Shown here: in pieces, positions 6,829 through 63,389 of the stretch
Position numbering within the stretch: position 1 is the first letter of the stretch
Layout of the letters: each line of letters begins with the position of its first letter
Assembly (NCBI RefSeq): GCF_014750655.1
Contig: NZ_JABBXD010000005.1
Span: 124,001-188,000, forward strand
Origin: Salinimonas profundi
Lineage (GTDB): Bacteria; Pseudomonadota; Gammaproteobacteria; Enterobacterales; Alteromonadaceae
DNA: 64,000 nucleotides
Reading direction: 5' to 3'
Translations under genes and position numbers: made by a program
The notes under the pieces: model-generated
The model's database searches: none
Told to the model about the DNA's origin: nothing
The model's input: only the letters and a program-made list of their open reading frames with translations

Positions 6829-6933
6829 CGTTCGTACTCATAATGGAAAACACCAAAATTTAAACGCTTTGTTAACATTTAATAAACCTGTTGGTGTGAA
6901 TCAGATAAAACCGGAAGGAAAGATAACTTTACT

Positions 6934-7893
6934 ATGTCGGAAAATACTCACTCACTGGATGTCGTGATCCTCAGTAAAGAGCACGCTGCTTACAAAGCCG
7001 CGCTTGAAAAGTATGAGCAACCTGCTTTCAATATTATTCAGGCAACCGATGACCCATCAGCGATAGATCAGAAGCAGGTTCGCGTTATGCTTGCTGATCC
7101 CGGTCTGGCCGCGGATATCGTAAATGATTGTGACAGGCTTCAGTGGATACAGTCAGGATGGGCCGGCAACACGCCACTGCTTGAGCAGCAGAAACGCAAT
7201 TATGTCCTGACGGGTGTAAAAGACGTTTTTGGCCGACAAATGCGTGAATATGTGTTTGCCTATTTACTTTATTTTTCCCGGAATATTCATGCCTTTTACG
7301 AGGCTCAGAAAAATGACGGCTATAACAAGTGGAATAAACCTGACTATCAGTACTTAGCCGGAAAAACCCTGGGAATTTGTGGCGCAGGATCAATTGCCAC
7401 CAGTTTATTACCGGTAGCGAACATCTTCGGGATGCGGGTAATCGGCCTGTCACGCTCGGGAGCGCCTAAGTCGGGATACGATGACATGTACGCACCGTCG
7501 CAAAAAATTGCTTTTGCCCGAAACAGTGATTTTATTATCAATTTACTGCCGGACACACCAGATACCCACAACTTTTTTGATGCATCGCTTTTCAGCGCGA
7601 TGGGCAAAAACAGTGTATTAATAAATGCCGGACGTGGCAGCGCAATTGATGAGCAAGCGTTAACAGAAGCACTCAATCATGAACATCTTCGGGCCGCGGT
7701 ACTGGATGTTTTCAGGCAAGAGCCGCTGCCAGACCATCATCCGTTCTGGCATCACGAAAAGATTATTGTTACGCAACATACAGCCGCTGAATCCGATCCG
7801 GAGGATATCGCGGCACTGTTTCATGACAATGCACAGCGATTCCTAAACGGGGAGACGCTTAAGTACGTGTTCAATTTTGAAAAAGGCTATTAA
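6934..7893 (+). CDS. D-isomer-specific 2-hydroxyacid dehydrogenase
   Basis: NAD(P)-dependent reductase of 2-keto acids (GhrA/glyoxylate-reductase-like), cytoplasmic, 319 residues. The Rossmann motif is LGICGAGSIATSLLP (~residue 149). The catalytic triad is visible as Arg in NAGRGSAID (~231), Glu in RQEPLPD (~263) and His in TQHTAAE (~281). The N-terminal substrate lobe is divergent, so the substrate is unknown. A purine-rich GGAAGGAAAG lies upstream of the ATG. It is divergently arranged with the large PLP enzyme, which may hint at shared amino-acid/keto-acid metabolism (inference). A strong hairpin follows the stop. Confidence 0.88.
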   Translation: MSENTHSLDVVILSKEHAAYKAALEKYEQPAFNIIQATDDPSAIDQKQVRVMLADPGLAADIVNDCDRLQWIQSGWAGNTPLLEQQKRNYVLTGVKDVFGRQMREYVFAYLLYFSRNIHAFYEAQKNDGYNKWNKPDYQYLAGKTLGICGAGSIATSLLPVANIFGMRVIGLSRSGAPKSGYDDMYAPSQKIAFARNSDFIINLLPDTPDTHNFFDASLFSAMGKNSVLINAGRGSAIDEQALTEALNHEHLRAAVLDVFRQEPLPDHHPFWHHEKIIVTQHTAAESDPEDIAALFHDNAQRFLNGETLKYVFNFEKGY

Positions 7894-48798: not shown

Positions 48799-49859
48799 TG
48801 TTTAAAATACTCGACTGGTATATCGCCAGAACGCTGGTTGGCACAATCTCTGTCACGTTATCAGTGCTTATCGGCTTAAGTGCACTGATTAAATTTGTAG
48901 AGCAACTTCGTAAGCTGGGTGAAGGCGAATACGATGTCATTCTTGCGGCTGTTTATGTTGTTCTGAGTTTACCAAGGGAATTAGAGCTCTTTTTCCCCAT
49001 GGCTACGCTTCTCGGTGGTCTGGTGGGCATGGGCGTGCTGGCCAGCAACAGCGAACTGGTGGTGATGCAGGCATCTGGCTTAAGCCGCTGGAACATTATC
49101 AGTTCGGCGATGAAATCCGCCGTGGTAATGATTCTGGTGGTCATGGCAGTGGGTGAATGGGTGACACCGTTTGCCGAGTCAAAAGCCAAAGAAGTCCGCA
49201 CCGAGGCCATTTCAGGCGGTTCGCTGTTTTCTTCAGATCAGCTGGTGTGGGCGAAGGATGGCGAGCATTTTGTCAGTATTGGCCAGGTCGTTACCCGCGA
49301 GCAACTGCGTGATATTACTATCTACAATTTTGATGATGCGCTCAAACTTAAAGATATTACCTTCGCACATGAAGGTTACTTTGAAGACAATGTGTGGTTT
49401 CTCAGCGATGTATCCCTGACACAATTTACCGATAAACAGGTTTCCGTGGAACATCAGGACAAGCAGCGCTGGGACTCCAGCCTGACCCCGGACAAACTGG
49501 GTATCGTGGCAGTGAAACCAGAAGCACTATCCATTCAGGGCCTGGATGATTATATTCAGTATCTGGATAACAACGACCAGGATAGCAGCCGGTATCAGCT
49601 GGCCTTCTGGCGTAAAGTTCTGCAGCCGGTCTCTATCAGCGTAATGCTGCTTACCGCATTGTCATTTATATTTGGCCCGCTGCGCAGTGTTACAATGGGC
49701 GCACGGGTGATACTGGGTGTGCTGACAGGCTTTGGCTTTTTCATTACCAATGAAGTATTCGGGCCGCTGAGTCTGGTGTATAGCTTTCCGCCGTTTGTGG
49801 GTGCTCTGCTACCCAGTTTACTGTTCGCAGCGATTGCTGCATTTTTGCTGCGTAAATAG
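48798..49859 (+). CDS. lptG: LPS export permease LptG
   Basis: Partner of LptF in the LptB2FG transporter. 353 residues with the same 3 TM - jellyroll - 3 TM plan; DWYIARTLVGTISVTL and SFIFGPLRSVTMGARVILG are characteristic. ATG 48798 was chosen (GAGG eight bases upstream) over the adjacent GTG; it shares its A with the lptF TGA, so the two are coupled. Confidence 0.95.
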   Translation: MFKILDWYIARTLVGTISVTLSVLIGLSALIKFVEQLRKLGEGEYDVILAAVYVVLSLPRELELFFPMATLLGGLVGMGVLASNSELVVMQASGLSRWNIISSAMKSAVVMILVVMAVGEWVTPFAESKAKEVRTEAISGGSLFSSDQLVWAKDGEHFVSIGQVVTREQLRDITIYNFDDALKLKDITFAHEGYFEDNVWFLSDVSLTQFTDKQVSVEHQDKQRWDSSLTPDKLGIVAVKPEALSIQGLDDYIQYLDNNDQDSSRYQLAFWRKVLQPVSISVMLLTALSFIFGPLRSVTMGARVILGVLTGFGFFITNEVFGPLSLVYSFPPFVGALLPSLLFAAIAAFLLRK

Positions 49860-49875
49860 ATAAAACAGGAAGCCG

Positions 49876-50421
49876 CTACCAGTTCTTATGGTGGTTGGCT
49901 TCTTTTGTTAACAGCAGCACTTCCGTGTTGGCTACCCTGTCCTGCAACGACTGCTTATTTTTAAAATCAATAAGCACCAGCAGGGTACCCAGACCACCTA
50001 AAGCACAAATCAGCCGCAGGACCAGCCTGCTCCAGGTCATTGGTGCGTCGGTGGTTGAGTAAATGCGCAGTCGCCATGCGCGCATGCCCAGGGTTTGCCC
50101 CCCTTTTTTCCAGAACCAGAGGAAGAATCCGGCTATCCACGCCCCAACCCACAATTGAATCACCAATTTGTAGCCCAAAGAAGCCTGGATCAGGTCTGCT
50201 GGTTCAGCGTATCCCCGCAGGTCAAGGATGCCATTTTTCAGCAAGATGACCAATGTAACGATTAACACAATGGCCGCGCACATTCCTACCGCTGTTGCGA
50301 CCAGCGTGTCATATACCATTGCCAGCAACCGGCGAAAGAAGGTCGCCCTTGGCATTATCTGCGGTTCGCTATCGTTAACCTGTTGTTTCTTTTGCTTATG
50401 TTTTTTCACAGCGCGTTCCAT
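49876..50421 (-). CDS. RDD family membrane protein
   Basis: A 181-residue inner-membrane protein with a lysine-rich N-terminus (KKHKQKKQQ) and three helices. The RDD landmarks are FFRRLLAMVYDTLVA, GQTLGMRAWRLRI and KQSLQDRVANTEVLLL. Convergent with lptG at 16 bases. RDD proteins are of unknown or varied function (some act as Na+/H+ antiporters). Confidence 0.85.
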   Translation of the reverse strand: MERAVKKHKQKKQQVNDSEPQIMPRATFFRRLLAMVYDTLVATAVGMCAAIVLIVTLVILLKNGILDLRGYAEPADLIQASLGYKLVIQLWVGAWIAGFFLWFWKKGGQTLGMRAWRLRIYSTTDAPMTWSRLVLRLICALGGLGTLLVLIDFKNKQSLQDRVANTEVLLLTKEANHHKNW

Positions 50422-50685
50422 TTAGTGGCGCTCATAGAATGACACAACTTAAAGCAGTCTGAAACAAACTTAGCGCAGTCAGCAATAAATACCATTTTCA
50501 TCATAACGTAAGCAATTTGTTATGCTTTTTCATTTTTTGCCTGCAGTTTACTGGCAAAGAGTTTGAAATAGCCAACTAGTGGCAGCGGGTAAGTTTTGAT
50601 AGCAGTTTATACACGGTAGGCAGCAATAATTCGGCGCCAGTTGCGCATCAATTAATCGAAAGGTGTGCTACACACCAAAAAAAGC

Positions 50686-50713
50686 TTGAGTGTCATTCGC
50701 ACATCGCTATAAT
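50686..50713 (+). promoter_or_regulatory. Sigma70-type promoter of tRNA-Leu
   Basis: TTGAGT (50686-50691), a 16-base spacer and a perfect TATAAT (50708-50713), 28 bases before the tRNA. The rest of 50422-50685 shows no gene. Confidence 0.8.
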
Positions 50714-50741
50714 GCAAAGCACATCGACCCACGTCGACAAT

Positions 50742-50826
50742 GCCAGTGTGATGGAATTGGTAGACATGACGGATTCAAAATCCGTTGCCTTCGGGCGTGG
50801 CGGTTCAAGTCCGCCCACTGGTACCA
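50742..50826 (+). tRNA. tRNA-Leu (anticodon CAA)
   Basis: An 85-base type II tRNA with encoded CCA. The acceptor GCCAGTG pairs with CACTGGT (one G-U), the D-loop region is AATTGGTAGACA, the anticodon loop is TTCAAAA with CAA at 50776-50778, there is a long variable arm (GCCTTCGGGC), and the T arm has GGTTCAAGTCC. It reads UUG codons. Its 3' part is repeated 5.3 kb downstream, marking it as an integration site. Confidence 0.97.
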
Positions 50827-50859
50827 CTCTTTTCACGTCTACAGAAAAGAGAAAAATAA

Positions 50860-50882
50860 GCCGACGCAAGTCGGTTTTTTTG
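50860..50882 (+). terminator. Terminator of tRNA-Leu
   Basis: CCGAC-GCAA-GTCGG followed by seven T, 34 bases after the tRNA CCA end. Confidence 0.85.
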
Positions 50883-50898
50883 TGACTGCTTATACGAA

Positions 50899-50950
50899 AA
50901 TCGCCACACCCCGGCGTGACGCTCGAGTGTCGGGCCAGCGGCTGGCGATT
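50899..50950. repeat. Palindromic (REP-like) element beside the tRNA
   Basis: AATCGCCA (50899-50906) is the inverse of TGGCGATT (50943-50950) around an imperfect GC-rich dyad. A variant of its right arm (CGAGTGTCGGGCCAGCGGCTGG here, CGAGTGTCGGCCC... there) interrupts the downstream tRNA copy at 56063-56097. Confidence 0.55.
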
Positions 50951-51005
50951 CAATATGCCGTATTTTAAGGACACAGAAAGTGTTTAGGTAATTCAGGCCT
51001 TTCCG

Positions 51006-53573
51006 CTAAGCGCTTAAGCTCGCTTTTAAAAATGTAGCTGTGGCGCTGTCCTTAGCATTAGCAACTTTCTCTGGTGTACCTTGAGCAACTATCCGGCCTC
51101 CCTCACCGCCCGCGCCCGGCCCCATGTCTATAATGTGGTCGCAAGCTGCAGCCACCTGCATATTATGCTCAACCATCACAACCGTGTTTCCACCTTCAAC
51201 TAACTTTGCTAAATGCTGCATAAGTAACGCTGTGTCTGAAAGATGCAAACCTGTTGTAGGCTCATCGAGCACGTAAAGGGTGTTGGAGTTTTGCGCGCGT
51301 TTAAGTTCTGACGCCAGTTTAATTCGTTGCGCCTCACCGCCCGACAACTCGGTAGCACTTTGACCCAAGGTTAGATAGCCAAGCCCTACGTTCATTACTG
51401 TTTGAAGTCCGCGTGTAATAACCTGATTAGTTTCAAATACGGGTATTGCCTGTTCAACTGTAAGCGACAATATATCGGCGATGGAGCGCTCGTTGTAGCG
51501 AACTTCCAATACTTCATTGTTATAACGCTTACCGTTACAAACGGTGCAGGGTGAATAAACGCTCGGCATAAACAGTAGTTCTACTGATACCACACCCAAC
51601 CCTTCACAATTAGAGCACCGCCCTTTTGCGACGTTGAATGAGAAGTGACCTGCATCGTATCCACGAGTCTTTGCTTCCTGTGTTGATGCAAATAAGCTTC
51701 TGATCTGATCATATATTCCGGTATAGGTTGCCAAAGTTGAGCGCGGGGTTCTACCTATGGGCGATTGATCTACCACAACTATTCGGCTTAACTGATCAAT
51801 CCCAGCATCGATAAAACCTTGTTTCGGTGTCGTGTCTTGTGCAAAAAGCGAGCTGGCGTCAGTGAGCACCTCCTTAGCATCTCTTGTTTTTTTTGTTTCT
51901 TTCGCTTTTTTCTCATCTTTCACAGCAGTGTTTAAACCGTCTTTAACTAGTTCAACCAGCGCTTGGCTAATCAAACTCGATTTTCCTGAACCAGAAACCC
52001 CAGTTACACACGTCATCACACCAAGAGGAATATCCACAGAGACATGATTGACATTATTTATCGACACATCATTAAGGCGCAATAACTCAATTGGCTTACG
52101 CTTAGAGCGAGTACAAAGTGCTCTGTTGTTAAAAACATATTCTGCAGTAGCTGAGCTTTTCTCGCCTACCAATTTATTAGCTGGACCACTGTAAACAAGC
52201 TCTCCTCCGTTAATACCTGCTCCAGGTCCAACGTCCACTACCCAATTCGCGCCTTTGATGACGTAAGGGTTGTGCTCAACAACAAGCAGCGAATTTCCAG
52301 AAGCAGTAATATTGTGAAGCGCGTCAATAAGTGCTTCTACATCGCGAGGATGAAGCCCTGATGAAGGTTCATCCATGACAAACATCACACCAAACAACTT
52401 TGATTTTAGCTGCGTTGCCAGGCGCAGTCGCTGCAGCTCACCTACAGAGGTACTTGTAGTGCTTCTATCTAACGAAAGGTAATGAAGACCCAGCGCAATT
52501 ATCGGCTTTAGTCTTTCAACAATGTCGCCCGTTATACTTTGTATAACTTTGCCCCGCTCTGAGGTATCGCCTTCGACCGAGTGTTGCAACGCCTTAAGCT
52601 TTTCATAAACACTTTGTAGTGACAGCCTTGAAAAATCGATAATATCTAAACCATCAATTTTAACAGCCAGTGCCTTTTGCTTAAGCTTTTTACCCCGACA
52701 AACCGGGCATGTTTCAACAGAAATGAAAGGGGTTATTCGTTGCTTCATTTTCTCATTTTGAGACGTTTTGAAAGTATCGAGTACATGACGTCGTGCGCTT
52801 ATAAACTTCCCATTGTAACTTGCAGGTTCTTTCTCTTTTCGTGCTTTACGAGTTTGCTCTAGATTATAATTTCGATATGCTGGCACCTGTGGCATTTCAT
52901 CAGTAAATAAGATCCAATCTCGTGTTTTTTTCGGTAGCTCTCGCCACGGAATATCAACGTCGATATCAAGGGAAAGCAGCACCCTAACGAGGTTTTTCCC
53001 TTGCCATGCTCCAGGCCACGCAGCTACAGCTCCTTCACGTATAGTAAGGTTAGCGTCGGGCACTAAGCGATGGGCTTGAGTGTCAAAAACTTTGCCAATA
53101 CCGTCACAGTGTTTGCATGCACCGTCAGGCGTATTAGGAGAAAACCCGTCTGCATAGACAATACTTTGACCTTCGGGATAATCGCCGGCACGTGAATACA
53201 GCATGCGCAGACTGTTAGAAAGCGTAGTGATACTTCCAACTGACGAGCGAACAGAAGGGGCACCGCGACGTTGATGAAGACCTACCGCGGGCGGTAGACT
53301 CTCAATAGCATCTACATCAGGCTTTTCTACCTGCTCTATTAAGCGCCTGGCATAGGGAGATATAGAATCTAAATAGCGATGCTGAGCTTCCGCATATAGC
53401 GTACCGAAAGCCAAAGAAGACTTACCGGAACCAGACACCCCCGTAAATACCACCACTTCATTTCGAGGTATATCAATATTGATGTTTTTTAAGTTGTGTA
53501 CACGAGCTCCGCGTACCTGAATATGTCCTTCGTTTTCTTGCCCTTGATTCTTTTGCCTTTCACTATTTTGCAC
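51006..53573 (-). CDS. UvrA-like ABC ATPase (UvrA2 / drug-resistance type)
   Basis: An 855-residue tandem ABC ATPase of the UvrA superfamily, shorter than UvrA1 (~940). Two Walker A motifs (VFTGVSGSGKSSLAFG ~46; TCVTGVSGSGKSSLISQ ~530), zinc modules with CKHCDGIGK, CPVCRGKKLKQ and CSNCEGLGV/CTVCNGKRY, and a canonical second signature ELSGGEAQRIKLA; the first is TSVGELQRLRLA. The reduced N-terminal insertion suggests loss of the UvrB-binding domain, as in UvrA2 and the DrrC proteins that protect against DNA-intercalating drugs. The start is GTG. It lies inside the tRNA-Leu-flanked segment and is visibly more AT-rich than the core genes. Confidence 0.85.
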   Translation of the reverse strand: MQNSERQKNQGQENEGHIQVRGARVHNLKNINIDIPRNEVVVFTGVSGSGKSSLAFGTLYAEAQHRYLDSISPYARRLIEQVEKPDVDAIESLPPAVGLHQRRGAPSVRSSVGSITTLSNSLRMLYSRAGDYPEGQSIVYADGFSPNTPDGACKHCDGIGKVFDTQAHRLVPDANLTIREGAVAAWPGAWQGKNLVRVLLSLDIDVDIPWRELPKKTRDWILFTDEMPQVPAYRNYNLEQTRKARKEKEPASYNGKFISARRHVLDTFKTSQNEKMKQRITPFISVETCPVCRGKKLKQKALAVKIDGLDIIDFSRLSLQSVYEKLKALQHSVEGDTSERGKVIQSITGDIVERLKPIIALGLHYLSLDRSTTSTSVGELQRLRLATQLKSKLFGVMFVMDEPSSGLHPRDVEALIDALHNITASGNSLLVVEHNPYVIKGANWVVDVGPGAGINGGELVYSGPANKLVGEKSSATAEYVFNNRALCTRSKRKPIELLRLNDVSINNVNHVSVDIPLGVMTCVTGVSGSGKSSLISQALVELVKDGLNTAVKDEKKAKETKKTRDAKEVLTDASSLFAQDTTPKQGFIDAGIDQLSRIVVVDQSPIGRTPRSTLATYTGIYDQIRSLFASTQEAKTRGYDAGHFSFNVAKGRCSNCEGLGVVSVELLFMPSVYSPCTVCNGKRYNNEVLEVRYNERSIADILSLTVEQAIPVFETNQVITRGLQTVMNVGLGYLTLGQSATELSGGEAQRIKLASELKRAQNSNTLYVLDEPTTGLHLSDTALLMQHLAKLVEGGNTVVMVEHNMQVAAACDHIIDMGPGAGGEGGRIVAQGTPEKVANAKDSATATFLKASLSA

Positions 53574-53843
53574 CTATTCACCTATTTCGTTTTGGGATTG
53601 CAATTAGCAGTCCTACCTTATTGCATAAAAAGCCATGGGATGTATCAATATGTGAATACTAGGGCTTTTTTTCGATCAATTATTGACGCTGCGACTGGCT
53701 TCACTCTTAAAGCGATACTATTTATGGTGCTAAACACTTCAGTATTTCGCCTTCGATGTGCTCTCAACCCAATGGTTTGGTTCTGATGATTTCAATACGG
53801 CTATCTCGGCAATAGGCCACTTTGTCGGAGTCATGCTCGTTAC

Positions 53844-55541
53844 TTAAGAAGAACAGCTATAATGAACGACACCCCCTGCGTGCATAAATTCATCAGGCCG
53901 CAAGCAGTAGTATTTTTCTTCCATAGCTTGTGATTGTTCATCATAAGGTGCACAAAGCACCTGCTGTAATTCACCAAGTAGCGATGTATCCTGCTTTTCT
54001 GCCTGCTGATAAGCTGGCACCACTAGCCACTCTCGCATGGTGTATTTAGGATTTACACGCTTCATTTTTGTAGCAACACTGTTGCTGTCTGGGGTATGAA
54101 GAGCACGTTTGCGCCAAGTTGCTAACCAGCCATTCCAGTCACTAAGAAGAGCCTTGCTGACGGGTTTGTAAAAACTCTTGCTTGTAGCTGCGATGTCGTC
54201 GGGCAGTTGGGACAGTTCACGAAAGAATATCGTATAATCTACAGGCGTGCGCGCCATAAGCTGCCAAAGAGACATCAGCAATTCGCTATCGTATTCAGCG
54301 AGTCCAAGTTTCGCTGCCCACATGGTATTGAGCTTTTCTTCCATGATAGCTGGAAACCCATTAAGCACCGCCTCGAGCGCTGATATGTCTTCATTGGATT
54401 TTGACAATAGTGGAGCCACCGCTTGGCAGAACATCTCAAAATTTTTAAAAGCTGCGGCTGGTTGATTGAAAAACGAAAAGTGCTGGCCACCACCGGTCCA
54501 TGGCTGAAACTTCGGGTCAAAGATTTCACAAAAACCGAATGGGCCGTAATCCAACGTAAACCCACCCACAGCACAATTGTCACTATTGAAATTCCCCTGG
54601 CAATACCCTACGCGGATCCAGTTAGTTACCAACGACGTCAGGCGATCGCAAAAGGCTTCGGCCAGTTGCAGAACCTGTGCTGCTAAAGGTTGGGTAATAT
54701 CAATCTCATTTATGTATTCACGCTCTATAAGATGACGGACAATCTGTTCCAGCTCTTTCATAGCATCAGGATGCTCATGACTGCGAGCGCGACGGCCAAA
54801 CAGCTCTAGTTGCCCCACCCGTAAAAATGAAGGCGCGACTCGGGTTGTTATGGCAACCGGATTAGACACCAGAATTTCAGGATCAACAGATGTTGAGCCT
54901 TCCAGATACCATGGCCGTTCCACTGTGTCGGTTTTTGACATGATCAAGCTCAGTGAACGCGAAGTGGGCACCCCAAGCGCATGCATAAACTCTTGGGCCA
55001 GAAATTCGCGCACGCTGGAGCGCAATACTGCACGACCGTCGGCACCGCGGCAATAGGGTGTACGTCCGCCGCCTTTAAGCTGCATTTCCCAGCGCTGTCC
55101 ATTAGCCACCAGCTCTACAACCGACATCGCCCGGCCGTCACCATAGCCATTACCGGTCTGAAACGGACACTGCTGAATATACTCTGTCCCATAAATTGAC
55201 AACGCATAGCCTGTTGCCCAGCCCACCCGTTTCATTGGCTCAGGCAGCTGCGTCATATCCCCCGAAAAAAGCCGGATAAATGCACCGGAATGCGCCAGTT
55301 CATTGCTTAGCCCCAGTTCATCAAACAAAGTTTGACTGTGAGAAAGGTAGACCGGATTATTCAGGGGAGTCGGAGTTACAGGAACATAGTGGCCAGAAAA
55401 CACCTGCCTTGCATTGTGGTCAGCGCCGTCCTCGGTAGACTGAGGATCGGGGGTTAACGCTGTTAACAGGGAATAATCTGTTAGGCGCGCAAAGTCATGA
55501 AGATCAGATATCTCAGCTGTGTTTGATTGTGTCTCTGTCAT
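53844..55541 (-). CDS. selO: Protein adenylyltransferase SelO (YdiU)
   Basis: Pseudokinase-fold enzyme that transfers AMP to Ser/Thr/Tyr of target proteins in redox homeostasis. 565 residues. Landmarks: [20 protein letters not shown] (inverted nucleotide-binding site), [39 protein letters not shown], and the C-terminal SCSS, where the selenocysteine of animal homologues is Cys. The ATG overlaps the stop of a short upstream ORF (ATGA). It is the second gene of the tRNA-Leu-bounded segment. Confidence 0.93.
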
Positions 55542-56240: not shown

Positions 56241-57227
56241 CTACATAAATCGACGTTTAAATTCTGTTTTCCTGGCCTCAGGCTCCGCCTCTTTTAAGCC
56301 TTTGCACTTGTGTGCAGCATGCGCGTCCCATCCAAACGGCCATCGCTTGAATAGGTGCTGGTGACAGGCTGGGCAAGGCCGTTGATGGCTTGTTGCTGAG
56401 GCTTGCTCTATCGTCTTGGGCTGAAACGTTGTTCGTATATGTGCTGCTGGACGTCGTATTGGCTCAACATTTGGTATCCATATGGCATCCCCCTTCTGTG
56501 CATCACCAAAACAGATTCGGTCCTGCTCGGGCAAACTTGCTACCCAGGCTGCACTGTAGGCATCCACTTTGTCGTGCATCGGTCCCAGACATATCTTATC
56601 TACCTGCGCCCAATCACTCTCTGCCTTGGGCCAACCGGTGCAATGCGACATCGCAGACAGTTGACACTCTGCCTGATTCTTTTTGGTTTTGTGGATATTC
56701 GCCACACCTAACTGCTTGACTGTGGCGTGCGGGTAAACTTCTATGCATTCAGCTACTTTGCTCAGCCTTTCATTCAAAGCAAAACCTAGCAGCATAAATA
56801 TTTGGTGAGCATGTGGCAGATTCTGTATCGGCTTATTCGCTTCAAGATGAGCAATACCTTTTGCCTTAATCTTTTCAAAATCGTCTGAAGATGGTGTGGT
56901 ATAACAACTGATGCCGGCTTTATCTAGTGCCTGCTCTGCGACTCTGCGCTTTAGAAGGTTGTCTCGGGGATGAAGTGGTGAGTCGATGCCTATCCGAATA
57001 GGGTTCAAGTGAAATTCATCGCATATCGTTTCGATGTAGTTCGCGACATCGTTTGAAAACGCCATATTCACTTCGTCGTGCAGTGTTAAGACATTACCCA
57101 AACCTTTAGGGGGTTTTATTTGGTGATTAGCTAAGGGTATTGGCAACAGTCGCCCCTTTTCCTGACGACAAATCACTAATGGCAGATGCTTGCCTTTCGC
57201 ACAAGCGACATCAATACCAATAAACAC
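56241..57227 (-). CDS. DUF429 family protein with C-terminal zinc-finger-like tail
   Basis: A 328-residue protein. The N-terminal FIGIDVACAKGKHLPLVI and later GIDSPLHPR and KVDAYSAAWVA carry the spaced acidic residues of the DUF429 RNase H-like fold (predicted nuclease). The C-terminus adds CPACHQHLF...HAAHKCKG, a possible C2HC zinc finger. GTG start at 57227. It lies next to a restriction-type endonuclease gene in the accessory region; a role in defence or mobile-element biology is inference only. Confidence 0.7.
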   Translation of the reverse strand: MFIGIDVACAKGKHLPLVICRQEKGRLLPIPLANHQIKPPKGLGNVLTLHDEVNMAFSNDVANYIETICDEFHLNPIRIGIDSPLHPRDNLLKRRVAEQALDKAGISCYTTPSSDDFEKIKAKGIAHLEANKPIQNLPHAHQIFMLLGFALNERLSKVAECIEVYPHATVKQLGVANIHKTKKNQAECQLSAMSHCTGWPKAESDWAQVDKICLGPMHDKVDAYSAAWVASLPEQDRICFGDAQKGDAIWIPNVEPIRRPAAHIRTTFQPKTIEQASATSHQRPCPACHQHLFKRWPFGWDAHAAHKCKGLKEAEPEARKTEFKRRFM

Positions 57228-57360
57228 ATCCGTGTTTTCCTCGCCTCTCGCTCTATAGTTTGCACCACGCTACAAACAATACTACACAATTGGAATTAAT
57301 ACCCAATCAGGACATTGACTGAGTTAATATCAAATCATTATTGAACAAGGATGTTTGATT

Positions 57361-58119
57361 GTGCCTAGAAAGAATCCATCTTTTGCTGACCTTCTGCTTC
57401 AAGCGCCGTGGTGGGTATCCATTGTAACTGCAGCAATCACCTATTTTGTGATGGGCCATTTACTCCCCTCTACTGAGACCGACAACCCGATTATCAATAT
57501 GGTGTTTAAGGCGCTTGCTGTTCCTGCACCGCTTTTCACACTTTTCATATTACTCATCGCGCCTTTTTCGTTTTTCAATTCACGACGAAAGGCCAAGCAA
57601 CTAGATTCTCAAAAGAGTATTGAGACCATTCGACAACTGCACTGGCGCAATTTTGAAGAGCTAGTCGCAGAAGCATTTCGCAGACAAGGCTATCGAGTGG
57701 CAGAAGGCGGATTTGGTGCAGACGGTGGTATCGACCTTGAGTTGAGAAAAAACAAAGAATGGGTACTTGTTCAGTGTAAACAATGGAAAGCTCAAAAGGT
57801 AGGCGTGAGTGTAGTGCGTGAGATGTTTGGTGTACTGATAGCAAGTCATGCAGATAAGGTAATTGTTATTAGTTCAGGCCACTTTACTCAGCAGGCAATC
57901 GACTTCGCAGCTGGTAAATCTATCGTTTTACTTAGTGGAAAGGAGCTATTGTCTTTGGTTTATGACGTGCAAACGAAGCCCAAAATAGAACCTGAAAAAC
58001 AGATATCCTGTCCGCGTTGTGGTAGTGAGCTTGTAGAACGGCAAGCGAAGCGTGGCAACAAAGCGGGCAATATTTTCTTGGGCTGTGCTAACTTTCCCAA
58101 GTGCCGTTACACTAATTAG
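57361..58119 (+). CDS. Membrane-anchored Mrr-type restriction endonuclease with topoisomerase zinc ribbon
   Basis: About 252 residues: two N-terminal TM helices (WWVSIVTAAITYFVMGHLL; APLFTLFILLIAPFSFF), a PD-(D/E)XK nuclease domain of the Mrr_cat type (GADGGIDLELRKN ... VLVQCKQWK, with the D and QxK catalytic residues), and a C-terminal C4 zinc ribbon like that of topoisomerase I (CPRCGSELVERQ ... FLGCANFPKCRYTN). GTG 57361 is preferred, with AAGGA nine bases upstream; a TTG six bases earlier is in frame. Nineteen bases before the NYN gene, so likely co-transcribed. It probably cuts foreign or damaged DNA at the membrane. Confidence 0.85.
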   Translation: MPRKNPSFADLLLQAPWWVSIVTAAITYFVMGHLLPSTETDNPIINMVFKALAVPAPLFTLFILLIAPFSFFNSRRKAKQLDSQKSIETIRQLHWRNFEELVAEAFRRQGYRVAEGGFGADGGIDLELRKNKEWVLVQCKQWKAQKVGVSVVREMFGVLIASHADKVIVISSGHFTQQAIDFAAGKSIVLLSGKELLSLVYDVQTKPKIEPEKQISCPRCGSELVERQAKRGNKAGNIFLGCANFPKCRYTN

Positions 58120-58138
58120 TGTTATTAAGGAAAAAACA

Positions 58139-58894
58139 ATGAAAGACTTGGATGTTCATAAAAAAGTTGCTGTACTTATAGATGCCGATAATGCCCAGCT
58201 AGCGAGGCTTTCTGCAATTCTGGATGAGATTTCTGCCCACGGACACGTATTGATCAAACGAGCCTATGGTGATTGGTCGGCCGATACACTTAAAAACTGG
58301 AAGAAACCATTGAATGAGCTGGCGATTCAGCCCATACAACAGTTTGCCTATACCACCGGAAAAAATGCGACCGATGCATCGATGATAATTGATGCAATGG
58401 ATTTACTGTATACCGACCGCATTGATGCCTTTGCTCTCGTAAGCAGCGACAGCGATTTTACTAAGCTAGCATCCAGGCTTAGAGAGTCTGAGAAATTTGT
58501 ATTCGGTGTAGGAGAAAAGAAAACACCGGTATCCTTCAGAAACGCTTGTGATGATTTCGTTTTTACCGAAAACCTGGAAACAGCTCAGGCAAATAAAACA
58601 GAAAAAGCAGTGCCAGGTCCTGCTTCGGCCAGCTCTACAAATGGTGCTGAAGAGCTTATCCCGGCTTTTCTTAAAGCTTGGGAACTCTATCAGAACGAAG
58701 ATGGCTGGGTTAACGTTGGCCCTGCGGGTAGTTTCCTGAAACGCGCCAAGCCGGATTTCGACCCTCGCACTTATGGTGGAAAAAAGGTAACCGATGTCGT
58801 AGCTAGCTTACCGGTTGTATTTGAAATGTCTCGCCAGCGGGGAAAAGGAACGACAAGTATTGTGCGTTATCGTCCCAAAATGATTGCGATCTAA
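58139..58894 (+). CDS. NYN-domain RNase with OST-HTH/LOTUS domain (LabA-like)
   Basis: A 251-residue protein. N-terminal NYN (PIN-like) nuclease domain with the acidic residues spaced as in LabA/limkain: VLIDADNAQ (~13), TTGKNATDASMIIDAMDL, and SSDSDFTKLA. The C-terminal ~75 residues (LIPAFLKAWELYQ ... GGKKVTDVVASLP) form an OST-HTH/LOTUS RNA-binding domain. AAGGA lies about seven bases before ATG 58139, which was preferred over an in-frame ATG inside the previous gene. Probable RNA processing or degradation; with the Mrr-type neighbour it may form a defence module (inference). Confidence 0.87.
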   Translation: MKDLDVHKKVAVLIDADNAQLARLSAILDEISAHGHVLIKRAYGDWSADTLKNWKKPLNELAIQPIQQFAYTTGKNATDASMIIDAMDLLYTDRIDAFALVSSDSDFTKLASRLRESEKFVFGVGEKKTPVSFRNACDDFVFTENLETAQANKTEKAVPGPASASSTNGAEELIPAFLKAWELYQNEDGWVNVGPAGSFLKRAKPDFDPRTYGGKKVTDVVASLPVVFEMSRQRGKGTTSIVRYRPKMIAI

Positions 58895-59269
58895 CAGTTT
58901 CTTTTTAGCAGCTTTAAAAAAACATTACGTCTCCGCGGAAAATTATCGATTTCACTTGCAAGTTCCGATAGTTAAGGTAGTGCAACTTTCAAATCTGAGA
59001 ACGTTTTTGTAGTCTAAACAGGGGTGGCTTCAATAAAGCCCCGCGTCGCGGGATTATTTTCAGCGCCCGATAATCGTGCCCATGGCAATGCTTTTGTCTC
59101 AGTCGCTATTCAAAAGAGAATCCCGGTGCTTCAAAGGTGCCCGAGAACGGGTGTGGTGATATTGCGATGTATGTATAGAGCGATGCCCGGGCCAGTCATT
59201 AATTCAAACTTGAAAACTGAACCGGGCTGCGCTGTTACTTAGAGATTGAGCACATCCTAGATGTGACTT
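58895..59269. other. Gene-free stretch after the NYN gene
   Basis: I see no convincing gene. A hairpin at 59032-59060 (CCCGCG-T-CGCGGG inside AATAA...TTATT, with a T-rich tail) may terminate transcription from the left. Confidence 0.4.
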
Positions 59270-59566
59270 TCATATAACGTTATCCGTTATGTTTGACCAC
59301 ACTTCGTTATACTCAAATTGGTAAGTAAGGGGGACATCCAGGTCATGACGAGCCCTTGAAGGTATCTCATCATCTTGAATAAAAAGAGGGTCCTCATCCG
59401 TGATCCCCTCGGAGTCGTAATATAAAACCACCAGGACAAGTTCTAAATCTGTATCCCGATAGATTGATAAATCTTTTAAGTCAGTCGCTTCAGCTATTAC
59501 ACGACTGTCACCCGAAGCAAATACTTCTTCGACACGCCATATAAAGCGATGCCCCTCTCCGGCCAT
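59270..59566 (-). CDS. Hypothetical 98-residue acidic protein
   Basis: No signal peptide or membrane helix; acidic, beta-rich sequence (FIWRVEEVFASGDSRV, DLELVLVVLYYDSEG) with no family I recognise. It starts four bases after the stop of the preceding small secreted-protein gene and has no ribosome-binding site of its own, so it is probably coupled. Both are divergent from the ToxR-like regulator. Confidence 0.5.
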   Translation of the reverse strand: MAGEGHRFIWRVEEVFASGDSRVIAEATDLKDLSIYRDTDLELVLVVLYYDSEGITDEDPLFIQDDEIPSRARHDLDVPLTYQFEYNEVWSNITDNVI

Positions 59567-59569
59567 TAC

Positions 59570-59752
59570 TTAGTTACCGGCAAATCTTTTATTACACTCT
59601 GGATAGCTCGAACAGCGACCTATCGTTTCCATCCCACTTGTGGTTATAACCGTTTCAGACGAAGTCTTCTCTTTATCACCGGCTGCAAATGCAGGAAGGG
59701 AAAATACAGTTAAAAGAATTGCTATAGTAGGTGCTTTGATGAGTTTGGTCAT
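59570..59752 (-). CDS. Small secreted peptide with two cysteines
   Basis: 60 residues: a clear signal peptide (MTKLIKAPTIAILLTVFSLP, AFAA cleavage) and a ~36-residue mature part ending GRCSSYPECNKRFAGN, where two Cys could form a disulfide. AAGGAG lies eight bases before the ATG, which supports expression. Divergent from the ToxR/CadC-like regulator with 165 bases between, so it may be a target. Function unknown. Confidence 0.6.
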   Translation of the reverse strand: MTKLIKAPTIAILLTVFSLPAFAAGDKEKTSSETVITTSGMETIGRCSSYPECNKRFAGN

Positions 59753-59917
59753 TGGGACGCTCCTTAATTTTTATTTTGAGAGCGCAAGTTATACTATGGC
59801 TATGCAAACGCTGCTTGACGAAACCTTTACCAATTATTACAAAGTGATAATAAGTCCTGACAGCACATTACATTTTATTACGTAAAGCTTATTTATTCTC
59901 ATTGAGACAGGAATCGC

Positions 59918-61957
59918 ATGGAGCAGAAGTACATCATTGCCCATAATCTCACCTATATTCCCAAACGTGGAATCATCATTTATGAAGGTGGGAAAATTGA
60001 ACTGGCAAACCTCCAGCGACAGATTCTGGAGCTGTTTCTAACAAGTAACGGCGACCCCGTTACGAAAGAAACGCTATTTGAACTATGGCCAGCACAGAGT
60101 ATAGCGTCAGAACAACAACTCGCCACTGCAATATCAAGGCTTCGCAAAAATTTTAATCAGGCAACTGGCGAGCCGGGCGTGAACTTCATCAAAGCAGTTC
60201 AAAATGTTGGGTATGAGTTTATTGCACATGTTCAGATTGTCTCAGAAGCGCCTACAGTTGAGCGGGATGAGCCAAAACAAGAAAGCAATGCCTTAAGGGT
60301 AGTTCGATGGCTACTTTTGCCAATTGCCTGCGTCATTCTAACTGCAATAGTAAGCGCGTTTTATTTCGATAAAGATCTGTCAGAATTCACAGCCGGAGCC
60401 ACTGTCGGTTATGTTGACTCATCGAACGATAAGCGCGAACCTGCATTCTCATCATTTAGCGATGAGTATGCTTATGGCGTGAAAAGCGAGGGCGATGAAA
60501 ACTGGCACGTCCTCGCTTATGAATCTTCAAATGCTGGCAGTATAGAAATAACAGCCCCTAATGCAGATATTAGAGAACCCGTATGGCTTGACAAAAAGCA
60601 GCTACTATATGTCGAGAAAAGCGCAAAATCCTGTGAGATTATGCAGGCCAGCCTTGATTATGAGCAAGTCACTTACAGCAGCAAACCGATTATATCTTGT
60701 AACCCTGCAAGCATTACAATAGACATCGCTTATCTCAAAGGTGACCGTATTTTGCTGGCTCAGATTCCGCCCGGCAAAAGCCAATCTCAACTTGATGTTT
60801 ATGATTACTCGACTGGTGAGCTATTGTCTCAGCGAGTTCCAAGTAAACAAGGCATTGGCATTTATGCCGTATATACATCACCTGATGGTAAGTTTTTAAC
60901 AACACTGCGAACAGAGGATAATTTCTCCACTATCGTAGAGCTTTACGATGCAGATAACCTATACGACAGTCTTTGGCGAACTGATATCGACTATACGATG
61001 TTTAGTATAGCAATGCACAATACCTATCTTGTTTTTAAACACGACAACGGGGTATTTACGGGGCTGAAATACCACAACTTACAGCTTACTCCCCTGGTAA
61101 CGTTAACACACCCGGCCTATTATCCTACTTACCATCCGGATGGCTTCGCTTTTATTGATGGTAATTTCAGCGCCAGTAATCTATTAATGAGCGGTAATAA
61201 GAGAATCGCCCCGGTAAATCAACCTGTAACAACTGACGAATCATCGGCAAATTACCTTTTGGCTGTTCATAAAAGTGATGTTTTTTACAGTTCGGACAGA
61301 ACTGGCACAACGCAGATTTGGAAGTTCGATACTAACACCCACTCACACGTTCAACTCACTCGTGCACCGTTAGGCATTGATGCGCTTCAAATGTACATCA
61401 GCTCAGATGGCAACAAGTGCGCGCTCATCCGACGGGGCCGAATTACCCTCTGCGATCTGGAAAAGAATAAAATAACATTGGGCGAGCAGTTTGACGGCCG
61501 CTCACCTACGTTTGATTCACACTCTGTTTTATACATCAACGATCACGATGGTCAGGGTGTGGTTTTCAGAATGAACCCGCGGACTAATGAGCATCATAAA
61601 GTTGGTTTGCCACCTGCCCGTCGGATTGCAAACACCGAGCATGGCCTTTTTATACAAAAGCAAAACATAGACGGAATATGGCGGGTAAACGATAGTGATG
61701 AGGTAAGATTAATAGCCATAAATACCACCCCGCTTAGTTTTGAGTGGGAAATTGTTGGCGATAGTCTCTACACCCAAACAACATCGGACGCGCAGATAAG
61801 AAGGTTCGATATAATGAAGGGCCATCCGCTTCCTGTCGAGCTCAATCAACAGTGTAATGTTGTCTATGGCTTGGCCGAGGACTATTGCGTCAGAGTGGCG
61901 CGACAACGCCCTAAAAACCGATTAATGGCAATCAGTCTTGATTTGAATGAGCATTAA
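59918..61957 (+). CDS. ToxR/CadC-like transmembrane regulator with periplasmic propeller domain
   Basis: A 679-residue one-component regulator. The N-terminal OmpR/PhoB-type winged helix (~10-105: LQRQILELFLTSNGDPVTKE, LATAISRLRKNF, FIKAVQNVGYEF) has no receiver. A single TM helix (~127-150, VRWLLLPIACVILTAIVSA) leads to a ~500-residue periplasmic region with TolB/WD40-like repeats (DGKFLTTLRTEDN, SSDRTGTTQIWKF, SSDGNKCALIRRG), predicted to be a beta-propeller sensor. Like CadC it should bind DNA while in the membrane. Divergent from two small ORFs and upstream of the double-glycine peptide gene. Confidence 0.85.
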   Translation: MEQKYIIAHNLTYIPKRGIIIYEGGKIELANLQRQILELFLTSNGDPVTKETLFELWPAQSIASEQQLATAISRLRKNFNQATGEPGVNFIKAVQNVGYEFIAHVQIVSEAPTVERDEPKQESNALRVVRWLLLPIACVILTAIVSAFYFDKDLSEFTAGATVGYVDSSNDKREPAFSSFSDEYAYGVKSEGDENWHVLAYESSNAGSIEITAPNADIREPVWLDKKQLLYVEKSAKSCEIMQASLDYEQVTYSSKPIISCNPASITIDIAYLKGDRILLAQIPPGKSQSQLDVYDYSTGELLSQRVPSKQGIGIYAVYTSPDGKFLTTLRTEDNFSTIVELYDADNLYDSLWRTDIDYTMFSIAMHNTYLVFKHDNGVFTGLKYHNLQLTPLVTLTHPAYYPTYHPDGFAFIDGNFSASNLLMSGNKRIAPVNQPVTTDESSANYLLAVHKSDVFYSSDRTGTTQIWKFDTNTHSHVQLTRAPLGIDALQMYISSDGNKCALIRRGRITLCDLEKNKITLGEQFDGRSPTFDSHSVLYINDHDGQGVVFRMNPRTNEHHKVGLPPARRIANTEHGLFIQKQNIDGIWRVNDSDEVRLIAINTTPLSFEWEIVGDSLYTQTTSDAQIRRFDIMKGHPLPVELNQQCNVVYGLAEDYCVRVARQRPKNRLMAISLDLNEH

Positions 61958-62297
61958 TAACGTTCCGTGGTCAGGATGACTTGCTCGCGACTAATGCTTA
62001 CTGGTTTTTGCATTTTCTCTTTAATAACCATTCAGCTTTTTTGTCTAGGCATCGATTTGCACAAGCATTCCAACAGAACCACCATTTTCCTACTACTTTT
62101 CTGCAGACTATACAAATAAATACTGCACGCCAAAAAGTTTCTCTTACTTTAAGAAATTCAAGTTTAGCTGACTATCTACCTCATCTAAAAATATTGACCC
62201 AAAGTTCAGTTACTTTTGGCCTCAAGCACTTATAAGTTTATTCCGCTATCGTTCATCTGATTAGCAGAATATTGGGATCTATCAAAAGGAAAATTGA
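61958..62297 (+). other. AT-rich gap before the double-glycine peptide gene
   Basis: An open frame at 61981-62235 lacks a ribosome-binding site and looks non-coding (His/Phe/Asn-rich, no recognisable fold). The stretch most likely carries the promoter for the peptide gene; no clear -35/-10 pair was found. Confidence 0.35.
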
Positions 62298-62471
62298 ATG
62301 AGAGAACTTACTTTCGACGAAGCAAATAATGTCTGCGGTGGAATAGTGGCGCTTTATTGGGTAGGAGTAGGTGCAGTATGGGCTTATCGTTCATATAAAA
62401 CAGTGCGGTTTGTTTCGCAAGCAATGGCTGGAGACGCCTTGTACGGCGGTGCAAAGTCAATGATTCCATAA
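62298..62471 (+). CDS. Double-glycine-leader peptide (putative class II bacteriocin/microcin precursor)
   Basis: A 57-residue ORF, below common length cut-offs, with AAGGA about seven bases before its ATG. The first 15 residues, MRELTFDEANNVCGG, match the double-glycine leader pattern (M-R-E-L-T-x-x-E-...-V-x-G-G) removed by C39-peptidase ABC exporters. The 42-residue core begins IVALYWVGVGAVWAYRSY, is hydrophobic and glycine-rich with one later basic segment, and contains GxxxG-like spacings (AGDALYGGAK) seen in membrane-inserting class II bacteriocins. A membrane zinc-ribbon ORF follows 48 bases later and could be the immunity partner. No C39 exporter is in the window. Leader call strong; activity inferred. 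Confidence 0.7.
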   Translation: MRELTFDEANNVCGGIVALYWVGVGAVWAYRSYKTVRFVSQAMAGDALYGGAKSMIP

Positions 62472-62519
62472 TTGTACAAGCGTACGGCCAAATCCGTACG
62501 CGCTTTTTGGCGTGTAAAG

Positions 62520-62822
62520 ATGCGTATAAATGAGTGTCACTGTCCGTGCTGCGACAGTCAGGTAAGACTACGAGCAAAATTAAGGCTAATGGTACATGAA
62601 ACAATCACATGCCATTGCTGTGAAGCTACGTTAGTCGTTAGTATTTTTTCAGCTGTGCTCGCAACCTGCTTATTAGGTGTACCCGCCTGGCTGTTATTCG
62701 ATGAGCTCCTGACAGCTACTGATATCCACAAATATGTGAAGCTCTTTTTAGGCTTCAGCGTGTGTATGTGTGCGGCGCGACTTGGCTTTCCATTCTCCAC
62801 TCTTATCCAGGTCAGGCGCTGA
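62520..62822 (+). CDS. Small membrane protein with N-terminal zinc ribbon (immunity candidate)
   Basis: About 100 residues: CHCPCCDSQV and CHCCEATL form a four-cysteine zinc ribbon, followed by two membrane helices (VVSIFSAVLATCLLGVPAWLL; YVKLFLGFSVCMCAARLG) and a short basic tail. ATG 62520 is the likelier start; an in-frame TTG at 62472 directly abuts the peptide gene. No strong ribosome-binding site, so coupling to the upstream peptide gene is plausible. Its size, topology and position suit a bacteriocin immunity protein, but that is inference from context. Confidence 0.55.
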   Translation: MRINECHCPCCDSQVRLRAKLRLMVHETITCHCCEATLVVSIFSAVLATCLLGVPAWLLFDELLTATDIHKYVKLFLGFSVCMCAARLGFPFSTLIQVRR

Positions 62823-62978
62823 TATTCAAAATAAACAACTGTAGTTCCGTTCTCACTATCCTCTCAGGCTCTTTCAACCGACATCTTCCTGACTTAGTAC
62901 TTTTACCTGACTGACCGGGACTTTGTGTTATTTGCATTAACATAAGGTGTTATACGAAAATTATACGGAGGGAAAGCT

Positions 62979-63194
62979 TTGCTATGTAAGTCATCACTTC
63001 AGCGTAACGATAGAGCGAATATAGGATTGACTATAAAATTGTATTCACTACCATTGACGCTGCTTATTACTACACCTGCTCATGCTCGGAGAGACGCCAT
63101 GCTAGGTATGATTTTTACGGTCGTTTTTATTGTTATTATGCTGGTTTTATACTGGATAATCGTCGCCGAGGTAGGTAAAAAAGATAAAAGCTGA
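62979..63194 (+). CDS. Small hydrophobic peptide, signal-like segment plus TM helix
   Basis: A 71-residue ORF with TTG start and a strong GGAGGG six bases upstream. A first hydrophobic stretch ends in a signal-peptidase-like TTPAHA, then RRDAMLGMIFTVVFIVIMLV forms a TM helix with a short charged end (EVGKKDKS). An ATG five bases after the TTG is out of frame and meets a stop at once, which supports the TTG. Unknown function; possibly part of the peptide cluster. Confidence 0.5.
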   Translation: MLCKSSLQRNDRANIGLTIKLYSLPLTLLITTPAHARRDAMLGMIFTVVFIVIMLVLYWIIVAEVGKKDKS

Positions 63195-63389
63195 GCTATC
63201 TCCTGCTGTTAACGTTATTAACCCAGCCTCGTTAAGAGTATGCAGTCCGGCCGCGGCACTCACTCGAGAGCCCGGTCAGCGTGTAGAGTCATATACAACT
63301 GAAACTCACCGCTAACGTACCGTTCTTTTAATATTCCCAGCCCCCAGCTCTACAAAAAATTTACCATAATCCCGACCAGACATCGGCAA

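Follow-up and report, generated by a model that had tools for sequence, protein, structure and literature searches.

A conserved double-glycine peptide and zinc-ribbon-like protein pair of Salinimonas profundi as a candidate class II microcin-like cassette

Positions 62298-62822 of the window, by which is meant the whole 64,000-nucleotide stretch of Salinimonas profundi DNA analysed here, are read with reasonable though far from full confidence as a two-gene class II microcin-like cassette, in which a bacteriocin is encoded together with a zinc-ribbon membrane immunity protein and would be exported in trans. The cassette itself is real and conserved, as demonstrated by the conservation of both genes, by their coupling and by exporter linkage in relatives. 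The cassette family is probably undescribed: no description of it, or of zinc-ribbon bacteriocin immunity, was found in the open-licence literature, outside which lie most subscription papers and all preprints. The original prediction of a bacteriocin cluster with a double-glycine (GG) leader, which had named conservation in related strains and a C39 exporter in the genome as two of its three tests, is supported on both counts, with leader and core kept in relatives and the exporter found on contig C10; antibacterial activity would be the corollary. The features are collected in table 1.

Table 1. Features of the cassette, of its surroundings and of related loci (positions in the window unless a locus is given)
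Feature	Position	Strand	Basis or remarks
Promoter-like hexamers TTGGCC - 17 nt - TATTCC, upstream of peptide gene	62216..62244	+	Sequence reading, alignment
Purine-rich ribosome-binding site AAAAGGAAAA of peptide gene	62284..62293	+	Sequence reading; similar purine-rich stretch in relatives
Precursor peptide, 57 aa	62298..62471	+	Conserved in 7/59 genus genomes and Neiella marina; purifying selection
Double-glycine leader, 15 residues, GG at 14-15	62298-62342	+	Translation, relatives
Peptide core, 42 aa	62343-62468	+	Translation
Terminator-like hairpin between the genes, 8-bp stem, 6-nt loop, then T-run	62480..62501	+	Folding
Four-Cys (zinc-ribbon-like) two-TM protein, 100 aa, candidate immunity protein	62520..62822	+	Adjoins peptide gene in 7 genus genomes and Neiella; homologue starts
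Third ORF, 71 aa	62979-63194		Independent of cassette
Putative graspetide-type operon, own genome, contig C10	L042:4974-9858, about 48974-53858		HlyD-type adaptor, C39 ABC exporter, HTH, precursor, ATP-grasp
Neiella adaptor	L060:4508-5803		HlyD-type
Neiella C39 ABC exporter	L060:5800-7950		
Neiella peptide gene	L060:8001-8177		50 bases behind exporter
Neiella partner gene	L060:8235-8543		After peptide gene
GG-leader ORF near pair, G030	L046:16884-17099		
GG-leader ORF near pair, G025	L047:10958-11209		
GG-leader ORF near pair, G053	L049:15818-16069		
GG-leader ORF near pair, G012	L050:6290-6418		

The 57-residue ORF with the leader MRELTFDEANNVCGG is present as had been described; for its core, a charge of approximately +2.8 at pH 7 and, if unmodified, a mass of about 4554 Da were calculated. 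When 98 genomes were searched, 59 from the genus (that of the window among them) and 39 from the rest of the order, the peptide was recovered at E <= 1e-18 in seven, all within the genus, the remaining matches having E values of 0.03 or more. In a class-wide search of 369 genomes only the window genome was recovered, along with one chance-level match (E 0.009). Carriers that can be named are Alteromonas aquimaris, A. indica, Salinimonas chungwhensis, A. lipotrueiana (broken copy) and Neiella marina, the peptide of which shows 60% identity. The gene is intact in six of the seven carriers of the genus; the G053 copy has lost its start codon and contains an internal stop, and G025 has two copies, one intact and the other without a start codon and with a frameshifted partner gene. 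No credible match of the peptide was obtained in Pfam, NCBIfam or PHROGs, and the AlphaFold model, from five sequences, consists of one long helix (mean pLDDT 74).

The peptide core is under strong purifying selection. Comparison with A. aquimaris (G012) gave 15.5 changes at 31 synonymous sites and 2.5 at 95 nonsynonymous sites, a contrast corresponding to a Fisher p of approximately 1.5e-8 with rounded counts and sites taken as independent, and dN/dS values of the window copy against its genus relatives are between 0.08 and 0.17. The leader was described by a pattern (ATG start, L/I/M at position 4, an acidic or polar residue at 8, V/I/M at 12, glycines at 14 and 15, 25-110 aa) that occurs once, in the window peptide, in a 182-kb control made of the window and six exporter stretches of the genus, which is no random sample of the family; the leader is thus more than a product of chance. 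A chance ORF is rejected in view of core conservation, of the excess of synonymous over nonsynonymous change and of the control for the leader pattern. The double-glycine leader model TIGR01847 has a single match in this genome, which is another ORF and not the window peptide: a second short double-glycine-leader ORF (MNKDISQKLKALTDKELKVVSGG...), above the TIGR01847 cut-off, is found at L072:1474-1641, near position 16405 of contig C3. In four relatives, other GG-leader ORFs, glycine-rich or short, are found no more than 10 kb from the peptide pair (table 1).

With respect to G012, the leader accumulated six nonsynonymous changes in 15 codons and the core 2.5 in 42. A core more conserved than its leader is unusual for an arms-race weapon and counts against the bacteriocin reading. 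It would instead suit a peptide acting on the producer's own kin, as a signal or autolysis factor, with the partner protein as a receptor or safety lock, and gonococcal Nap peptides, with GG leaders and a C39 peptidase, are reported in the excerpted text of PMC11798529 to mediate autolysis rather than to kill competitors. We consider this quite unlikely, by taking into account that the patchy spread (seven of 59 genus genomes) and the clusters in which a partner gene stands with several GG peptides of diverse sequence resemble bacteriocin loci, and that a receptor is not expected to outlast its peptide, yet the partner is kept in G053, where the peptide gene is broken.

The partner gene lies directly 3' of the peptide gene in all seven genus carriers and in Neiella, and the partner profile gives strong matches in the same seven of the 59 genus genomes as the peptide. 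A further, weak match in G054 (E 2.5e-4), where no GG peptide is found in the 3.3-kb stretch, was left out as a member. The small four-Cys protein had been correctly spotted behind the peptide gene, but its start had been placed at the TTG at 62472, which directly abuts the peptide stop. The start is assigned here to the ATG at 62520, because homologues begin there and because the intergenic hairpin would fall inside the stretch translated from the TTG. Hydropathy analysis indicates one clear and one borderline membrane segment, and the AlphaFold model (six sequences) shows strands followed by two long helices, with low confidence (mean pLDDT 60); the borderline segment and the poor model both weigh against the microcin-like reading, and neither AlphaFold model is strong enough for a fold comparison. 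Weak matches to the LysW-type zinc ribbon (PF21344) were found for four of the seven aligned members, with a best E value of 0.00036, the window protein itself having no Pfam match at E <= 1; from the spacing of its cysteines, we infer that the partner binds zinc. The one partner match in PADLOC, to GajB (E 0.014), is weak and was not believed, and matches to solved structures are at chance level only.

A wider survey was carried out on 395 genomes of the family, representing 52 genera. Matches at E <= 0.001 were obtained in 14 genomes (eight genera) with the peptide profile and in 22 genomes (11 genera) with the partner profile. Of the 20 genomes from which a stretch was examined, four had been selected by both profiles, four by that of the peptide alone and 12 by that of the partner alone. 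In G665, G597 and G516, VALYWV-type cores share one stretch with partner, adaptor and C39 exporter genes; in G474 such a core is accompanied by the partner alone. ORFs were confirmed in 11 of the 12 partner-only stretches; in G728 the profile matched with no ORF confirmed, which leaves 15 of 16 genomes outside the genus. Eight of the 11 confirmed partner-picked stretches contain a same-strand GG-leader ORF at most 1.4 kb upstream, with many different cores, compared with the single such ORF, that of the window, in the 182-kb control; the three without a GG peptide are those of G583, G609 and G822. Outside the genus, an upstream GG peptide is present in 12 of 15 ORF-confirmed partner stretches, and exporter genes are found in eight of these 12 (in stretch L114 the contig ends and the ABC gene alone is seen). 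Throughout the family, relatives of the four-Cys protein are encoded together with a wide variety of double-glycine peptides. The G516 stretch (L100:1186-10447) combines adaptor, exporter and partner genes with five different GG-leader ORFs.

The distribution of the two genes argues for a protective role of the partner. Close relatives were defined at E <= 1e-17 for the partner (11 genomes) and at E <= 1e-13 for the peptide (10 genomes, including G053). All ten close peptide relatives have a partner match at E <= 0.001, whereas a close partner without a recognisable working peptide is found in G053, in which the peptide is broken, in G583 and in G609. In the latter two stretches no GG-leader ORF lies beside the partner gene, and the direct search with the peptide profile gave E values of 0.018-0.23 for G583 and 0.011 for G609. 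Retention of the partner without a recognisable working peptide, and of no close peptide relative without the partner, is as expected of an immunity gene, in an asymmetry that rests on three genomes and therefore on a small sample. No C39 match was obtained in G609. G583 has six, the weak peptide matches beginning at the leader approximately 6 kb from one of them, so that this strain may make other GG peptides. At L105:6459-7151 of G583, a partner-type gene stands, without a GG peptide, beside a second small membrane protein gene (6819-7151), and the two look like an orphan immunity array. In G815, which encodes a remote peptide relative, a different small membrane protein takes the place of the partner; this, like the three partner-picked stretches with no GG peptide, counts against the cassette reading.

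A role of the partner as a helper or receptor is possible. That the four-Cys protein assists export or maturation rather than conferring immunity would fit its association with GG peptides of quite different cores, but is judged very unlikely, as the partner is absent from the exporter-bearing GG-peptide clusters L101 and L104, is kept in G609 with no C39 match, and varies widely in sequence among clusters (profile E 1e-55 to 1e-4).

The absence of a C39 exporter from the window, noted originally, is borne out by the whole genome: a single PF03412 match was obtained, which falls on contig C10, and the window belongs to contig C5. On C10, a 718-aa C39 ABC exporter, in the alignment of which the Cys, His and Asp expected of the C39 site are readable, is encoded with an HlyD-type adaptor, and TolC is found in the same genome above the curated cut-off. 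The exporter operon also encodes a small HTH protein, a 60-aa precursor with a VKGG leader and an ATP-grasp enzyme whose matches to maturases of the MvdC/MvdD type do not reach the respective cut-offs, and because of these three components it looks like a graspetide-type cluster. ATP-grasp homologues adjoin the exporter in G004, G012, G025 and G031, with none in the G030 stretch. C39 matches were obtained in 58 of the 59 genus genomes, so that their presence in peptide carriers is by itself weak evidence. A direct linkage is instead observed in Neiella, the exporter of which is 46% identical to that on C10 over 695 residues and is followed by the peptide and partner genes (table 1). In G030, the graspetide HTH gene is truncated, adaptor, exporter and peptide pair are intact, and a 20-kb stretch gave no match to an ATP-grasp enzyme or graspetide precursor.

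The location of the exporter on another contig, in an operon with its own VKGG-leader precursor and ATP-grasp enzyme, also agrees with the view that in Salinimonas profundi only a remnant of the cassette without its exporter is left, maintained perhaps because it confers immunity, the peptide being no longer secreted and the only C39 exporter serving the graspetide-type precursor. The broken G053 copy and the broken one of the two G025 copies point in the same direction, and so do the residues in which the window copy differs from its relatives, one in the leader (Cys at position 13) and two in the core. This explanation is nevertheless considered unlikely. The peptide ORF and its ribosome-binding site are intact in the window and the dN/dS values are low within the genus; in G030 exporter and adaptor are intact next to the truncated HTH gene, and neither an ATP-grasp enzyme nor a precursor was matched over 20 kb; and one export system can serve co-occurring microcins, according to the available portion of PMC9746304.

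The control signals are less well defined. The promoter-like hexamers are not reported by the consensus scan and are a weak assignment; the block aligns in the seven genus sequences and not in Neiella. For the intergenic hairpin, the consensus fold of the seven genus sequences has nine pairs, two of which are changed on both sides in one sequence each and some of which are broken. The folding energy in the window is modestly better than that of shuffled sequences (z -1.4), and the values across the genus are also modest (z -0.6 to -3.1 in one run, -1.4 to -2.8 in another). Stronger, unrelated hairpins occupy the same place in Neiella (z -5.1) and follow the second peptide gene of G665 (z -4.6 and -5.4 in the two runs), and some of the 16 folded places have none, as behind the first G665 peptide gene (z -1.0) and that of G597 (z -0.1). 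Hairpins behind genes are common, and the role of this one is therefore a guess. Upstream inverted repeats were considered as a shared operator and rejected, since they differ among the four stretches searched and none is present in the window.

The cassette is smaller than the cluster first drawn, which had included the 71-aa ORF and had been placed downstream of a ToxR-like regulator. Among the six other peptide carriers of the genus, G004 only has the 71-aa ORF, and relatives of it occur without the peptide in G057, G054 and G009, which rules it out as a second peptide of the cluster. Codons 41-72 of this ORF differ from those of G004 by five synonymous and no nonsynonymous changes, and codons 1-40 by five and 13, respectively, so that the real gene may encode a shorter, one-TM protein; the last approximately 31 residues, constrained with respect to G004 and related to sequences in G057, G054 and G009, contain one hydrophobic segment. 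The regulator, which stands next to the pair in G004 and in no other of the searched stretches of relatives, is likewise dropped. The AT-rich character ascribed to the region turned out to be weak, with a GC content of 39-44% at 62000-63249 compared with 41-46% at 57000-61999. Carriage as plasmid or phage cargo was discarded, with no match in plasmid or phage records; a viral-contig scan listed 83 candidate stretches, none of which was confirmed.

Processing, secretion, target, killing and immunity, as well as zinc binding and the role of the hairpin, are features that we infer for the cassette, and they can be arranged in the following scheme. The 57-aa precursor would be made first and cut behind the double glycine by the C39 peptidase domain of the ABC exporter, which in Salinimonas profundi would act in trans, so that a cationic, hydrophobic 42-aa peptide would be released via the HlyD-type adaptor and TolC. 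Its most likely target would be the inner membrane of related bacteria. Protection of the producer would fall to the zinc-ribbon-like two-TM protein encoded alongside, which would reside in the producer's inner membrane and either block the peptide or shield its target, and the intergenic hairpin may let the peptide message pile up above the immunity message.

If the microcin-like reading is correct, a marine family is added, with the recognisable core VALYWV...GxxxAYR and many sister peptides in like clusters. Immunity genes are otherwise hard to detect by homology, and a recurring candidate immunity protein would provide a handle for searches; a two-gene cassette borrowing a resident exporter is, moreover, directly testable. 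A broader and distinctly speculative proposal, which at present seems more doubtful than convincing, is that zinc-ribbon two-TM proteins form a family-wide class of immunity proteins, each paired with a different GG peptide. In these, the four-Cys ribbon, and not the helices alone, would capture the peptide or guard its target, immunity could depend on zinc or redox conditions, and the cassettes would move apart from a resident exporter borrowed from a graspetide operon.

Comparison with known families and systems places the two genes as follows. Partner relatives share with TIGR04104 (cxxc_20_cxxc putative zinc finger) and PF21344 the presence of Cys pairs approximately 20 residues apart and match these models weakly; they differ in that the Neiella homologue, with 20.5 bits, remains far below the curated TIGR04104 cut-off of 45 bits, and the window protein, in its 116-aa form, is not listed for this model at E <= 10. 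The Nap island of Neisseria gonorrhoeae, as far as described in the excerpts of PMC11798529, similarly combines small cationic GG peptides, a C39 peptidase and a putative immunity gene, but the Naps bring about autolysis and are associated with a FapF-like channel, whereas an HlyD/TolC-type route is expected for the cassette. For the McbABCI system of Moraxella catarrhalis, experiments have shown, according to the part of PMC2761928 at hand, that killing requires the peptide gene and that immunity is conferred by the small gene next to it. Its exporter genes, double-glycine peptide gene and small immunity gene are in the same order as in Neiella (PMC2761928, same excerpt), whereas the exporter is unlinked in the Salinimonas profundi genome; McbC has 101 aa and McbI 74 aa, McbI being described in that excerpt as unlike any known protein (PMC2761928), and the partner of the cassette is a four-Cys membrane protein of approximately 100 aa. 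A 2022 review puts the number of microcins, in the section available, at only 15, every one of them from Enterobacteriaceae (PMC10233263). For the class II microcins of Enterobacterales, the excerpted account of PMC9746304 lists a GG-leader precursor, a small nearby membrane protein, a C39 ABC exporter, an HlyD-type adaptor and TolC. The cassette differs from them in belonging to another bacterial order, in its zinc-ribbon-like partner and in a core outside Pfam, NCBIfam and PHROGs, and its antibacterial activity is a putative one. The likeness extends to a short precursor with an N-terminal double-glycine leader and, unlinked to the cassette in the same genome, to the C39 ABC exporter, the HlyD-type adaptor and TolC; the adjacent and co-conserved 100-aa partner, with one clear and one borderline membrane segment, is a candidate for the small immunity protein, usually with membrane helices, that class II microcins have encoded nearby.
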